NCBI GenBank assembly: GCA_031266535.1
Contig: JAISAS010000002.1
Span: forward strand, 1 to 32,723
Direction: 5' to 3'
Source: Endomicrobium sp.
GTDB lineage: Bacteria; Elusimicrobiota; Endomicrobiia; Endomicrobiales; Endomicrobiaceae
Length of the DNA stretch: 32,723 nt
The notes under the pieces were generated by a model. It searched no databases, was not told the origin of the DNA, and saw only the letters and a program-made list of their open reading frames with translations. Positions 1 through 30,997 of the stretch are shown one piece after another. A program made the position numbers and the translations under genes. Every line of letters starts with the position of its first letter. Positions within the stretch are counted from its first letter, which is position 1.

Positions 1-1423
1 ACTAAATACAATAAAAGAATTATTTAAAGGTAATAAACAATTATTTGAAGGACTATATATATATGACAAATGGGATTGGTCTAAAACTTATCCTATCATT
101 CATTTGGATTTTAGTGTGACGGATTATTCTACGCCAAAGGAATTAAAATCTTCTCTTAATAAATTTATTGAACTAACAGCGCGAAATAATGGAGTAATGA
201 TAGATGAAGGACTTTTATTGCCAATGAAATTTGCTGATTTGATAAAAAAATTACGTGAAAAAACTGGTAATCAAGTAGTGATTTTAGTGGATAATTATGA
301 TAAGCCGTTATTGGATAATTTTAATAATGAGAATATATATTTAGAGATAAAGAAGATATTGCATAATTTCTATCAAGTTGTGAAAGCCGAAAACATCAAT
401 GAAAAATTTGTGTTTCTAACTGGAGTATCTAGATTTACAGATCTTTCAATTTTTTCAGGATTAAATAACTTAAATGACATAAGTATGAATTATAAATATT
501 TAACAATATGTGGATATACACAAGAAGAACTAGAAAATAATTTTTTGGAGTATATAGAATATATTTGTAAAAGTTTAGAAACAAGTTATGATAAGGTATT
601 AGATACAATGAGAATGTGGTATGGTGGGTATTCTTGGGATGGAAGGACATTTGTATATAACCCTTTTTCAATATTATTATTTCTTGATAAAAAAGAATTT
701 CAAGAATACTGGGTTAAAACAGAAATTTCTACGTTCTTGATGGAACAAATAAAGAAAAAAAATAATTTAACTTATTTTATAAAAAGTCAAAAAATAACAG
801 GTAACTTTCTTAGGGTAAACGTGAATAATAATATAGAAATAATGACTTTACTGTTTCAAATAGGATATTTAACAATAAAGAAAAAAAAGATGGAGAAAGA
901 TGGTAGTGTGCAATATAATCTAGATTTTCCTAATATGGAAGTGAAAGTAGCTCTCTTAGGTAATTTAATGAAAGAATATTCATTTAGAGAATTGATAGAA
1001 ATATATGAGATAAATAAGAAAATAATAAAAGCTTTAAAAGAAAGAAACTCAAATTCTTTACAAAAGAGTTTAGTAGAATTATTTGCGAATACTTTTTATG
1101 ATTTAATCGTAAAAAAAAGATTGTACTATCATTTTTTGTTTTTGTTTGCCCTAAGATTAGGTGGATTTGAAGTAGAAGGGGAAGATATATATATAGATAA
1201 TGAAAGGATAAGTATGTTATTAAAAAAAGGTAGTGATATAATAATTATAGAGATAAAATCCGGTAAAGAGAAACCAGCTAATAAGATGGCTAAAGAAGCG
1301 ATGAAACAGATAAAAAATAAAAAATATTTTGAAAAATATATTTTAGATAACAATGTAACTTTATTGGCTGTGGCTTTTGGGAATAAAAGGGAGGTTTCTT
1401 GTCATTTTCAGACTATATCTTAA
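1..1423 (+). CDS. AAA-ATPase-like / PD-(D/E)XK nuclease-fold protein, 5' end outside window
   Basis: The reading frame is open from base 2, so the true start lies upstream; the TTG at 104 is internal. About 473 residues are visible. The first visible residues (KELFKGNKQLFEGLYIYDKW) and the later 'WYGGYSW..YNP' segment are typical of the AAA-ATPase-like family (Pfam AAA-ATPase_like) that carries a C-terminal PD-(D/E)XK nuclease-like domain. The Walker A region would be upstream. The Walker B-like strand reads ILVDNYDKP (codons around 281-307), where the family normally has DE-Y-DKP. The C-terminal segment keeps E-I-K (1250-1258), but the position I align with the usual catalytic Asp is Ser (1211-1213). 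The biochemical role of this family is not established. Such genes are often multicopy in host-associated bacteria. This copy may be inactive or repurposed; the residue comparisons are from memory. Confidence 0.82.
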   Translation, partial: LNTIKELFKGNKQLFEGLYIYDKWDWSKTYPIIHLDFSVTDYSTPKELKSSLNKFIELTARNNGVMIDEGLLLPMKFADLIKKLREKTGNQVVILVDNYDKPLLDNFNNENIYLEIKKILHNFYQVVKAENINEKFVFLTGVSRFTDLSIFSGLNNLNDISMNYKYLTICGYTQEELENNFLEYIEYICKSLETSYDKVLDTMRMWYGGYSWDGRTFVYNPFSILLFLDKKEFQEYWVKTEISTFLMEQIKKKNNLTYFIKSQKITGNFLRVNVNNNIEIMTLLFQIGYLTIKKKKMEKDGSVQYNLDFPNMEVKVALLGNLMKEYSFRELIEIYEINKKIIKALKERNSNSLQKSLVELFANTFYDLIVKKRLYYHFLFLFALRLGGFEVEGEDIYIDNERISMLLKKGSDIIIIEIKSGKEKPANKMAKEAMKQIKNKKYFEKYILDNNVTLLAVAFGNKREVSCHFQTIS

Positions 1424-1433
1424 AAAGGGAAAA

Positions 1434-1679
1434 ATGAAAAAATTAATTTTGTTGACTTTGTTTTTAATGTGTTTATTTGTTTCAGGTTGTTTCCAACATA
1501 GAAGAAATGGAAATGAAAGGGAATTGTTGTGTTATACGGTTTCAACAAATAAAGATGGAGTAGTCAATTGGATAGATAAAAATTGTTGTGATAAAAATTG
1601 TAAATCTACAGGAAAATGTTCAAACTGTACTTGCTTTCGTAATGAATTTAATGAATGTAGTATGGTGTGTATTATTTAA
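1434..1679 (+). CDS. Small cysteine-rich putative lipoprotein
   Basis: I do not recognise this 81-residue protein. The ATG at 1434 is preferred over the upstream in-frame codon at 1377, because it begins a clean lipoprotein signal: MKK, a hydrophobic run, then the lipobox V-S-G-C with Cys at about residue 19. An A/G-rich stretch (1425-1430) sits just upstream. The mature part is very rich in cysteine. Counting the lipobox Cys there are ten in the whole protein, including CC, a C-x2-C-x-C cluster and paired Cys near the C-terminus, which suggests disulfides or metal binding in the envelope. It starts 10 bases after the stop of the AAA-ATPase-like gene, so co-transcription is likely. Function unknown. 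The frame could be fortuitous, but signal, spacing and Cys pattern argue it is real. Confidence 0.6.
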   Translation: MKKLILLTLFLMCLFVSGCFQHRRNGNERELLCYTVSTNKDGVVNWIDKNCCDKNCKSTGKCSNCTCFRNEFNECSMVCII

Positions 1680-1811
1680 TTAATTTTATTAAAATAATTA
1701 AAGTACCATTTGATATTTTTTTTAAATGTTTTTAAAATAACTATAAATGATAAAAATTAATAAAGTAAGAATGTACAAAATCTTGAGTTTATAAGAGGGG
1801 AATTATTTAAA

Positions 1812-2200: not shown

Positions 2201-3754
2201 ATGAAGAGTGATGATATATTGGTAAGGTATGCTACAAGAACATTTTTTGGTACAATCTTATCTAGAATTGTTGGGTATATGCGTGATGTGCTTGTTTCTA
2301 GCTTATTTGGTACAGGCATGTTGTCTGATGCTTTTTATGTGGCTTTTAGAATTCCAAATCTTTTGAGACGTATATTTGGAGAGGGTGCATTTTCGTCAGC
2401 TTTTGTACCGATATTTAATGAATATTTGCATAGAAAGAGTAAAGAAGAAACACAAGAATTTTTGAATATAGTGTTTGCAGTTTTGTTATTGACTCTTGTA
2501 ACAATATCTATTTTAGGAATGTTTTATTCATCATTTTTGGCAAAAATAGTTGCAGGTGGATTCTCAAATGAACCTGAAAAGATACAACTTGTTATAAATC
2601 TCACAAGAATGATGTTTCCTTTTGTTACTTTTATTTGTCTTACTGTTTTTTTACTTGCGATATTAAATGCTTTAAATTCATTTTTTATTCCATCGCTTAC
2701 ACCGGCTATTATAAGTTCTTCTGAAATTATTTATATACTTGCAGTTGCGCCATTGTTTGCTCCTAATAAGCAAATTAAGGGACTTGTTGTTAGTATTGTT
2801 ATAGGAGGAATGTTATGTTTTTTTGTACAATATCCTAAACTTAAAAGTTTGGGATGGCGATTGAATTTTAAACTAAATTTAAAACATCCAGCTGTAGTAA
2901 AAATATTATTTCTTATGATACCATCAATCATAGGTTTATCTGCAGATCAAGTAAATGCTTTAGTTGATAGTAGGTATGCATCTTCACTTGGACAAGGCGC
3001 AGTATCAGCTATTTATTATGCTAATAGATTAATGCAAATGCCATTAGGAGTTTTTGGTTTTGCTATTGCAACAGCTTTATTGCCAATTTTGTCGAAGGCC
3101 TATATTCAAAGAGATATAGTAGCATTTAAAAAATCTTTCAATTATTCAATAAGATTATCAAATTTTGTTCTTATTCCTGCATCAATAGGTTTCATGTTTA
3201 TAGGTCTTCCAATTGTAAAGTTTTTGTTTGAATATGGGAAATTTAATGCTTCTAGTTCTATTATGACGAATAACGCATTGTTTTATTATTCTTTAGGTTT
3301 ACCAGCATATGCTTTGGTGAGAATTTTTGCAAACGCATTTTATTCATTTCAAGATACAAAGACTCCAGTTAAAGTAGCTGTAGAAGCTATTGGTTTGCAT
3401 GTTATTCTTGGTATAATATTAATGCATTCACTAGGTTTAGGAGGTTTAGCGCTTGCGACGACTATTTCTTCTTATATTAATTTCATTTTACTTGCAGTTT
3501 ATTTAAAAAAATATGTAGGAAAATTTGAGTTGAAACAGATAGTATTTTCATTCTTAAAATCTTTATTTGCTTCGTTTATATCAGGTATAGTAGCTTTGTA
3601 TGTGTGCAGGTTTTCAGATAAACTATTTATTGCTGTTCCTTGTGCAATAATTTCAAGTTTAATAGTATTTATCACAGTTTCATATATTTTTAAATCTGAG
3701 GAATTAATGGTAATTCATAAAATGCTTAAAAAAAATCTTGATAGAATTTTTTAA
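2201..3754 (+). CDS. murJ: Lipid II flippase MurJ (MviN)
   Basis: MurJ moves the lipid-linked peptidoglycan precursor (lipid II) across the inner membrane. The 517-residue length and roughly 14 hydrophobic segments fit the MOP/MVF superfamily. The N-terminus carries the diagnostic pattern SR-IVGYMRD (R22, R28), D43-AF, FRIPN (R50), LRR and E-GAFS-AFVP. Later segments such as 'YYANRLMQMPLGVFGFAIATALLP' type residues (about 274-298) are also MurJ-like. The start is ATG 2201, which gives the usual short N-terminus before the first helix; no strong Shine-Dalgarno is visible in front of it. It is the last plus-strand gene before a minus-strand tRNA and gene pair. It implies a peptidoglycan wall, in agreement with mltG and ftsK elsewhere in the window. 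Confidence 0.95.
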   Translation: MKSDDILVRYATRTFFGTILSRIVGYMRDVLVSSLFGTGMLSDAFYVAFRIPNLLRRIFGEGAFSSAFVPIFNEYLHRKSKEETQEFLNIVFAVLLLTLVTISILGMFYSSFLAKIVAGGFSNEPEKIQLVINLTRMMFPFVTFICLTVFLLAILNALNSFFIPSLTPAIISSSEIIYILAVAPLFAPNKQIKGLVVSIVIGGMLCFFVQYPKLKSLGWRLNFKLNLKHPAVVKILFLMIPSIIGLSADQVNALVDSRYASSLGQGAVSAIYYANRLMQMPLGVFGFAIATALLPILSKAYIQRDIVAFKKSFNYSIRLSNFVLIPASIGFMFIGLPIVKFLFEYGKFNASSSIMTNNALFYYSLGLPAYALVRIFANAFYSFQDTKTPVKVAVEAIGLHVILGIILMHSLGLGGLALATTISSYINFILLAVYLKKYVGKFELKQIVFSFLKSLFASFISGIVALYVCRFSDKLFIAVPCAIISSLIVFITVSYIFKSEELMVIHKMLKKNLDRIF

Positions 3755-20311: not shown

Positions 20312-21601
20312 ATGTCCACATTAATTGTTTTGGGGATGCAATGGGGAGATGAAGGGAAAGGAAAAGTTGTGCATTATCTTGCAAAGCAGGCAGATTATGT
20401 TGTTCGATATCAAGGTGGTAATAATGCTGGTCACACTTTAATTTATGAGAATAAACCTTTTGTATTACATTTGATACCTTCTGGGATATTGTTTCGCAAA
20501 AAATATTGTTTGATTACAAATGGTGTTGTTGTTGATCCTGAAGCATTAAAAGAAGAGATTTATATATTAAAAAAAAAAGGAATTTTTGTTACTGGAAGAT
20601 TTTTTATAAGCGAACAAGCTCATGTTATACTTCCTTATCATAAACTTATTGATGTAATTTTGGAGAAGGGAGATGTTAAAATAGGAACTACAAAGAAAGG
20701 AATAGGTCCTGCTTATGCCGATAAAGTAAAGAGAATAGGGATAAGGGTTATTGATTATCTGGAAAAAGATGTTTTTGAAGATTTGCTTGAAAAAAATCTT
20801 AATGAGAAATTGTTTATTTTGAAAAAAAGTAAAATAAATATATTAAAATTAAAAGAAAAAATATTAAAAGATCATAAAGAACTTTCAAAATTAATTAAAC
20901 CTTTTGTTGCTGATACAAGTCTTATAATAGAAAATGCGATAGCTAAAAATAAAAAAATTCTTTTTGAAAGTGCACAAGGAACATTGCTCGATTTAGATTT
21001 TGGAACTTATCCGTTTGTAACATCGTCTAATCCCATAGCAGGTGGTGCATGTTTGGGTGCAGGAGTTGGGCCTACGAAAATAAATGATGTTTTAGGTGTT
21101 GTTAAAGCTTATGCTACAAGAGTTGGTGAAGGGCCTTTTGCTACAGAACTTTTAGATAATGTAGGTGAATTTTTAAGAGAGGAAGGTGGTGAATATGGGG
21201 CAACTACTGGTAGACCTCGTCGTTGTGGTTGGTTTGATGCAGTTGCTGTACGTTTTAGTGTAAGGATTAATAATATAAAGCATTTAGTTCTTACTAAACT
21301 TGATTGTATGCAGAGTTTGAAAAAGATTAAGATATGTATTGCATACAAATATAAGAATGATATATATAAAGAATTCCCTGCTTCAAGGACTATTCAAAAA
21401 TATGCCAAACCTGTTTATGAAGAAATTCCTGGATTCAATAAACGAATCAAGGGTATTACAAAATTTGATAAGTTACCTATAAATGCAAGAAAATATATTA
21501 AGCGTTTAGAGCAACTTATAGGTGTTTCTATAGATTTAATTTCTCTTGGTAGAAAAAGAGAAGAGATTATAGAAATTAAAAAAAATACTAGATGGTTTTA
21601 A
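20312..21601 (+). CDS. purA: Adenylosuccinate synthetase
   Basis: PurA converts IMP, aspartate and GTP to adenylosuccinate, the committed step towards AMP. The 429-residue length is standard. The N-terminal P-loop region reads GMQWGDEGKGK (8-18), with catalytic Asp13, followed by YQGGNNAGHT (33-42, catalytic His41). Other landmarks are GTTKKGIGPAYADK (about 129-142), the QGTLLDLDFGTYPFVTSS segment, and TTGRPRRCGWFDAV near residue 300. The start is ATG 20312 with AAAGGG upstream. It follows the tRNA pair after 57 bases and precedes thyX by 22, so purA and thyX probably share a transcript. No damage is seen. Confidence 0.96.
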   Translation: MSTLIVLGMQWGDEGKGKVVHYLAKQADYVVRYQGGNNAGHTLIYENKPFVLHLIPSGILFRKKYCLITNGVVVDPEALKEEIYILKKKGIFVTGRFFISEQAHVILPYHKLIDVILEKGDVKIGTTKKGIGPAYADKVKRIGIRVIDYLEKDVFEDLLEKNLNEKLFILKKSKINILKLKEKILKDHKELSKLIKPFVADTSLIIENAIAKNKKILFESAQGTLLDLDFGTYPFVTSSNPIAGGACLGAGVGPTKINDVLGVVKAYATRVGEGPFATELLDNVGEFLREEGGEYGATTGRPRRCGWFDAVAVRFSVRINNIKHLVLTKLDCMQSLKKIKICIAYKYKNDIYKEFPASRTIQKYAKPVYEEIPGFNKRIKGITKFDKLPINARKYIKRLEQLIGVSIDLISLGRKREEIIEIKKNTRWF

Positions 21602-21623
21602 AAATAAATTGGAGTTTTGAGAA

Positions 21624-22289
21624 ATGAGAGTAAAACTTATAAAGTTTACTCAAAATTCAGAGCAAATATGTGCTATGGCTGCAAGATTATGTTATAGCGA
21701 TATTGATGTTGATGAGATTTTGGATAAGCTTACGGTTGACAAAATAGAAAAACTTCTTCTTAAGGTCATTTCATCAGGTCATTGTTCTGTTTTAGAGCAC
21801 GTTTCGTTTACTTTTGGAATTGAAGATGTATCACGATCTTTACTTGCACAACTTACAAGACATAGGATAGCTTCTTTTTCTGTACAAAGTCAAAGATATG
21901 TAAAGTTCAAAAATGACATTAAATTTATAATTCCTAAAACAATAAAAAAAAATGGAGTTTTGTTAAAAAAATATAATAATATTTTAAAAAATGTTAAAGT
22001 TTTATATAAGGAATTACTAGGTATAGGTATACCAGCTGAAGATGCTAGATATATTTTACCTATTTCTTCTGCAACAAAAATTATAGTTACAATGAATGCG
22101 AGAGAATTGAGACATTTTTTTTTATTAAGATGTTGCAATAAAGCGCAGTGGGAAATAAAAGATGTAGCGTGTTGTATGTTAGAGTTTGTAAAAAAAGAAT
22201 CTCCGCTTTTATTTGCAGATGCTGGTCCAAGTTGTATAAGAGGATGTTGTCGTGAAACTTTTCCTTGTACTAAGCCGTGGATTAAATAA
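21624..22289 (+). CDS. thyX: FAD-dependent thymidylate synthase
   Basis: ThyX makes dTMP from dUMP using methylenetetrahydrofolate and FAD/NAD(P)H. The signature R-H-R-x2-S-x4-S-x-R-Y is seen at residues 79-92 (RHRIASFSVQSQRY). SVLEHVSFTF (55-64) and the NARELRHFFLLR segment, also typical, are present. The 221-residue length fits. GGAG at 21611-21614 precedes ATG 21624. It replaces ThyA, so no DHFR is needed to recycle dihydrofolate from this step. With comEB it gives a route from dCMP to dTMP. The last residues, after ADAGPSC, are rich in Cys, as in several anaerobe homologues. Confidence 0.95.
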   Translation: MRVKLIKFTQNSEQICAMAARLCYSDIDVDEILDKLTVDKIEKLLLKVISSGHCSVLEHVSFTFGIEDVSRSLLAQLTRHRIASFSVQSQRYVKFKNDIKFIIPKTIKKNGVLLKKYNNILKNVKVLYKELLGIGIPAEDARYILPISSATKIIVTMNARELRHFFLLRCCNKAQWEIKDVACCMLEFVKKESPLLFADAGPSCIRGCCRETFPCTKPWIK

Positions 22290-30469: not shown

Positions 30470-30997
30470 TTACTTATGTACTACTTTGTGAGGTTTATTA
30501 GTTATTTTTTCTATAACGGTTGTTCCTGTTTCTACATCAATACCAATTAAAGTATAATACGAAACTTTAGGTATAAAACTATTATTAGCAAAAACATAAA
30601 CTTTAGAAAGATATGATTTTTTGTTATTTATTTTAATTTCTGCTTTAGGAATACCATTTATCATAATGATTTTTATTATTTTATTAGGTACAGCTTTCAA
30701 AATTAATTCGTAATATCCACTATTATTATATTTTATTTTGAAACCATATGCTTTTTTTTCAAAAGTGGTTATTTTTTTATGTTGTCCTTGTTTTGTGTAC
30801 AAAATCCAATAAAAATTTATAGGATTAGATTTATTTATTTCTCCATTTGAATTTAATATTACGTCATACATAACGATATTAGTATTTTTGTTTCTTTCAA
30901 TTTTAAAAAGATTTTTATTACTTGAAGTATATGCTGATGTAACTAAAAATATAAAAGCTAAACTAACAAAAAAAAATGTGATAATTTTTCTTTTCAT
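30470..30997 (-). CDS. Exported DUF4833-like protein
   Basis: The 175-residue protein begins with a signal peptide (MKRKIITFFFVSLAFIFL, probable cut near TSAYT). The mature part contains LFKIERNKNTNIVMYDV, then PINFYWILYTKQG, a KKAYGFK segment, and a C-terminal strand-rich part ending with YYTLIGIDVETG. This pattern resembles DUF4833, a small secreted beta-rich domain of unknown function seen in Bacteroidetes and other bacteria. I recall the family by sequence pattern only. It is convergent with the cysteine desulfurase and lies 163 bases downstream of uhpC on the same strand. Function unknown. Its periplasmic or surface location is an inference from the signal. Confidence 0.7.
   Translation of the reverse strand: MKRKIITFFFVSLAFIFLVTSAYTSSNKNLFKIERNKNTNIVMYDVILNSNGEINKSNPINFYWILYTKQGQHKKITTFEKKAYGFKIKYNNSGYYELILKAVPNKIIKIIMINGIPKAEIKINNKKSYLSKVYVFANNSFIPKVSYYTLIGIDVETGTTVIEKITNKPHKVVHK

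Follow-up and report, generated by a model that had tools for sequence, protein, structure and literature searches.

A predicted orphan cysteine-rich lipoprotein adjoining a DUF1703-type ATPase gene in a reduced Endomicrobium genome

We found that the open reading frame at positions 1434–1679 (plus strand) of the window, by which we mean the whole stretch of 32,723 bases analyzed here (contig C1 of a 395-kb, five-contig assembly that is 52.9% complete), is probably a real gene, predicted to encode an 81-residue, cysteine-rich putative lipoprotein. The frame carries a lipobox and far more cysteine than chance would give, the searches made returned no relative of it, and the DUF1703-type ATPase gene directly before it has no recurring linkage to a gene of this kind. 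On balance, we favor the view that it is a lineage-specific orphan small lipoprotein gene that adjoins the ATPase gene through genome rearrangement and not through functional partnership. The original prediction, which had proposed such a partnership, spotted the gene correctly and paired it wrongly; what is left is an orphan small lipoprotein that we regard as ordinary to mildly interesting.

The frame opens with an ATG ten bases past the stop codon of the ATPase gene (TAA, 1421–1423), just as had been described. The span first assigned to it, 1377–1679, is a genuine open frame that would encode 100 residues if an upstream TTG were used as the start; however, 1377 is merely where this in-frame TTG lies, and the ATG at 1434 is the natural start. 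Read from the sequence, the N-terminus of the 81-residue product consists of a basic start, then a hydrophobic stretch, and then VSG immediately before C19, and so it has the two attributes by which a bacterial lipoprotein is recognized, an N-terminal signal peptide (predicted to comprise residues 1–18) and a lipobox ending in Cys, with Cys19 as the predicted lipid anchor. Cysteines occupy positions 13, 19, 33, 51, 52, 56, 62, 65, 67, 75, and 79, which makes eleven overall; the ten reported earlier are those counted from the lipobox onward. Eight of them are packed into the 29 residues from 51 to 79, and this cluster contains the C62-x2-C65-x-C67 arrangement that had likewise been noticed.

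Alternatively, the frame may be spurious or decaying: either it is open by chance or it is what remains of a once longer gene, filling the space that separates a repeat gene from the following genuine gene in a reduced genome. We consider this unlikely, in the first place because of the cysteine excess combined with a signal peptide and a lipobox at the expected place. Given the base composition of the window, 80 random codons would include 11 or more Cys with a probability of 1.4e-5 per ORF; none of 956 ORFs of 60–150 residues, taken from 60 simulations of the window by a first-order Markov model, reached 10 Cys; and in the real window a cysteine fraction of 10/81 was reached by none of 39 spurious ORFs (out-of-frame or antisense frames of 45–130 residues inside accepted genes). 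The alternative frames of 1424–1811 also argue against this reading, since none of them yields a segment longer than 47 residues. Codon usage is weakly coding-like: the 27 accepted genes span 0.205–0.508 bits per codon (scored with a codon table trained on themselves), and the score of this frame, 0.222, falls within that span, toward its low side. However, this score was equalled or exceeded by 6 of the 39 spurious ORFs, and by 9 of the 39 when the comparison was with the mature part alone, so that codon usage by itself is no proof of a gene. A spurious or decaying frame would also fit with the failure of the searches made to find a homologue, with the position of the frame beside a member of an ATPase family whose congener copies are frequently broken, and with the result of a search of the plus strand at 1000–1434, in which no promoter-like site was found.

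The pairing had been expected to fall if related genomes held no homologue of the lipoprotein, and no credible one was found among the class's 94 other genomes. At E ≤ 0.01, matches were obtained in 3 of 95 class genomes, the window's own included; the other two contain internal stop codons. When 59 genomes (the window's own and 58 relatives) were searched, none of the relatives gave a homologue at E ≤ 1e-3. Weak matches appeared in 12 of the 58, with best E values from 0.00175 to 0.38 and stops in the best two, and we judged these to be chance; the nearest thing in the loci of these relatives is a 155-residue lipoprotein-like ORF with 5 Cys (L014). Scans of genome_contigs and viral_contigs, which are sensitive to close relatives only, found no homologue, nor did tblastn against phages and plasmids yield a credible one (a single partial plasmid match had an E value of 2). 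Among family models, Pfam offered no match to the product at E ≤ 1, metallothionein models included, NCBIfam gave only LptM (E = 1.5, a chance signal match), and PHROGs gave four weak matches, the best at E = 0.055.

The spacing of the cysteines was also followed without regard to overall similarity. The six-cysteine spacing CC-x3-C-x5-C-x2-C-x-C is matched in 45 of 340 genomes of the phylum, and in 30 loci from spacing-matched genomes 111 of 121 matches are open; once frames whose motif holds more than 7 Cys had been set aside as mere cysteine repeats, 4 frames were kept, and only one of these has a lipobox, namely that of the window itself. For the eight-cysteine pattern in viral_contigs, there were, among the matches listed, 81 open ones in 120 loci, from which two frames were kept, both lacking a lipobox. 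The literature was similarly silent: no title on Endomicrobi(a) and lipoproteins points to such a protein, no work joining Endomicrobi(a) with DUF1703 was found, a search on cysteine-rich small secreted lipoproteins of endosymbionts produced one general review only, and the main texts of two papers on Endomicrobia, in the portions at hand, mention neither "lipoprotein" nor "ATPase" (PMC11257099, PMC8809381).

The next gene, at 1812–2153 on the plus strand, encodes an exported protein of 113 residues that belongs to a genus-level family, found in 7 of 41 genus genomes, the window's own included, at E ≤ 1e-3. The window's copy is without the lipobox Cys, and several congener copies have a lipobox (leaders compared by eye). 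A weak promoter-like site precedes this gene at 1710–1738 (plus strand), in a region where 6 such sites were seen as compared to 9.5 in shuffles. In one congener (G031), copies of the family adjoin thyX-like and purA-like ORFs (named by eye); in the window, the counterparts of these two ORFs are adjacent to each other at 20312–22289. Another exported-looking protein of the window, encoded at 30470–30997, has a DUF4833 domain (E = 5.7e-30).

Beyond this gene, at 2201–3754 on the plus strand, lies what we take to be murJ, encoding the lipid II flippase, which was found in 34 of 41 genus genomes including the window's own. Of 29 murJ loci in congeners, 24 have a miaA-like ORF (named by eye) as the upstream neighbor, and one further locus (L019) does not extend far enough upstream to show its neighbor; the window's murJ is unlike most of these in that miaA does not precede it. 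Two congener loci carry small cysteine-rich ORFs directly upstream of murJ, one on G024:C12 (L209:4248–4484, minus strand, 90 bases before murJ, 7 Cys) and one on G023:C13 (L210:2496–2711, minus strand, 146 bases before murJ, 10 Cys), neither with a Pfam match at E ≤ 0.01. Judged by eye, both have signal-peptide-like starts and no lipobox, and the G023 ORF is without a usual start codon ahead of its full signal. The two peptides share homology (BLASTP E = 4e-8; none of 2000 shuffles scored as high), and a third relative, cut short, is present elsewhere in G024. Two intact murJ genes are present in G024, one following miaA (L234) and the other with the cysteine-rich ORF (L209), and G023 has one intact murJ with the cysteine-rich ORF (L210) and a broken murJ elsewhere, beside a uvrC-like ORF (L236), in what is apparently a replacement; the gene names at these loci were given by eye.

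One could thus envision the window ORF as the positional counterpart of these peptides, fast-evolving, host-facing, and travelling with a second type of murJ, a reading that we hold to be quite improbable. In its favor, the peptides stand in the two congeners where most loci have miaA, they are related to each other, and the MurJ of the window groups as sister with the G024:C12 protein at support of 96/99; in addition, a clade uniting the MurJ proteins of the window, G024, and G023 is not rejected, nor is it shown (p-AU 0.267). However, the window's row is a long branch, the G023 murJ is placed elsewhere in the free tree, another gene intervenes between the window ORF and murJ, and two further loci (L035 and L038) have neither miaA nor a cysteine-rich ORF. 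The window ORF resembles the congener ORFs in being small and cysteine-rich, with a signal-peptide-like start, near murJ and in the same genus, yet it differs from them in its lipobox and in having no detectable sequence homology to them. Its Smith-Waterman scores against the two peptides were not beyond those of shuffles (p 0.61 and 0.40), a profile of the peptides ranked it 191 of 201 against its own shuffles, and in the window's genome the two-row profile picked up no more than a chance-level hit, elsewhere, that has an internal stop. Homology to the murJ-upstream peptides found no support in the shuffle comparison or the profile rank, and a common origin is not supported; a shared niche is possible. 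A broader proposal would have the genus place small, fast-diverging, cysteine-rich exported peptides before murJ, with the window lipoprotein as a membrane-tethered member, acting through thiols or metal or as a knotted fold where symbiont and flagellate host meet, and evolving so fast that sequence searches would miss their kinship; this we rate as a long shot. Even so, murJ is a better lead than the ATPase for the context of the ORF.

The gene on the other side, at 2–1423 (plus strand), is the 3' part of a DUF1703-type gene, its product matching both AAA-ATPase_like (PF09820, E = 8.8e-34) and PDDEXK_9 (PF08011, E = 3.8e-8) above the curated cut-offs. The contig edge cuts the gene at its 5' side, so that the last 473 codons are present and the PF09820 match begins at profile position 49. 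A single copy was found in this assembly; besides the window's own genome, 12 of 40 congeners have whole and broken copies, a single genome holding as many as 25 matches, and many of the congener copies are broken or situated at contig ends. A multicopy repeat of this kind may break assemblies, which could explain why the window starts inside the ATPase gene. In the part of the account at hand, the same PF09820 plus PF08011 family is described as expanded in the arthropod symbiont Cardinium cCpun, where partial copies lie close to scaffold borders (PMC6387759). The family in the genus is like that of Cardinium in having both domains and in being multicopy and often broken, but unlike that expansion only one copy was found in the incomplete assembly studied here, and the same part of the Cardinium account mentions no cysteine-rich lipoprotein partner.

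Among the congeners we examined 49 ATPase loci, chosen from a longer list, and in 42 of them the match reaches residue 440 or beyond; a few of the 49 overlap, so that an end may count twice. Same-strand ORFs of 40–130 residues with at least 6 Cys were listed for the 900 bases downstream, and none of the 42 3' ends is followed by a cysteine-rich lipoprotein. Three ends do have a same-strand ORF with 6–8 Cys, 228–546 bases downstream and unlike the 81-residue product; one of the three (L047) includes a lipobox-like stretch, but it is an out-of-frame overlap with a longer ORF of 119 residues. The genes downstream of the ATPase differ between copies, and this, taken with the lack of a cysteine-rich lipoprotein after the 42 ends, is why the adjacency is best read as incidental. 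That the lipoprotein works together with the DUF1703 ATPase/nuclease, perhaps as its immunity or anchoring protein, is highly improbable: the 10-base gap, the shared strand, and the failure to find a terminator-like site between the two genes would suit a partnership, but such a gene does not recur behind the ATPase in congeners, the few cysteine-containing ORFs there are at least 228 bases away and dissimilar, the neighbors vary from copy to copy, and PADLOC matches neither protein at E ≤ 1. A pairing would have implied a new two-gene system; recurrence at 0 of 42 ends led us to reject that system, and the fact that the pairing does not hold saves follow-up work.

Turning back to the lipoprotein as an orphan, the genome in which it lies is probably a reduced one. 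The GC content is 28.6%, the genus is represented by 41 genomes of roughly 0.2–1.4 Mb, and the window encodes a [FeFe]-hydrogenase, a phosphofructokinase family gene, and an MFS transporter. In the part of the description at hand, the Endomicrobiellum endosymbionts of flagellates have the smallest genomes and the lowest GC of the family and possess a HydABC hydrogenase and sugar-phosphate transporters (PMC11257099). The features of the window and its genus would fit a placement of the organism in Endomicrobiellum. In symbionts with otherwise shrunken genomes, exported peptides without relatives are candidates for contact with the host, and the cysteine-rich lipoprotein of 1434–1679, if retained in a reduced genome, merits an expression check. 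It may have a host-facing role, or an effector-like one as the original prediction proposed.

The product, which we infer to be expressed, would be exported through Sec, with lipidation and LspA cleavage at Cys19, whereupon a linker of about 30 residues would follow Cys19 and lead to the C-terminal, eight-cysteine block (51–79), which would be localized at the membrane surface. There the thiols would more likely be kept reduced and bind metal ions, as a tethered metallothionein-like cap, than be joined in disulfides. LspA was found in 36 of 41 genus genomes, including all 14 of those with completeness of 90% or more and contamination of 5% or less, and was not found in the window's own assembly, which is 52.9% complete. 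Among the same 41 genomes, many of them incomplete, DSBA was found in none and VKOR in one. The lack of DSBA and near lack of VKOR in the genus, together with the obligately anaerobic nature of the family (as given in the portion of PMC11257099 at hand), make oxidative folding doubtful and reduced thiols the more likely state; the two oxidase families, the only ones searched, favor free thiols mildly. Our preferred role, entertained only tentatively and suggested by the cysteine spacing and by these two families being missing or nearly so, is that a lipid-tethered peptide binds metal via thiolates. The 81-residue product is best pictured as an orphan lipoprotein of a symbiont with a reduced genome, probably one of the Endomicrobia; it would be lipid-anchored and bear a C-terminal cysteine cluster that may bind metal.

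A knotted, disulfide-bonded fold is possible as an alternative to metal binding. The single-sequence AlphaFold model of the product, of low confidence (mean pLDDT 62, pTM 0.37), has a helix at 49–56 and strands at 65–69 and 75–79, and a helix followed by two strands would be reminiscent of small disulfide-knotted domains (EGF-like and follistatin-like, as well as CS-alpha-beta). Follistatin and EGF-like modules did appear among the short, weak Foldseek matches, alongside unrelated folds. Against such a likeness, Foldseek returned nothing at E ≤ 0.001 (best E = 2.8), no PDB sequence matched at E ≤ 10, and the genus appears to be without DSBA.

Bacterial metallothioneins are small and cysteine-rich, with C-x2-C and C-x-C spacings, and the 81-residue product is comparable in all of these respects. 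It differs from metallothioneins in matching none of their Pfam families at E ≤ 1 and in where it would act: the known bacterial metallothioneins are cytosolic, whereas this peptide is predicted to be exported and held at the membrane by a lipid anchor.
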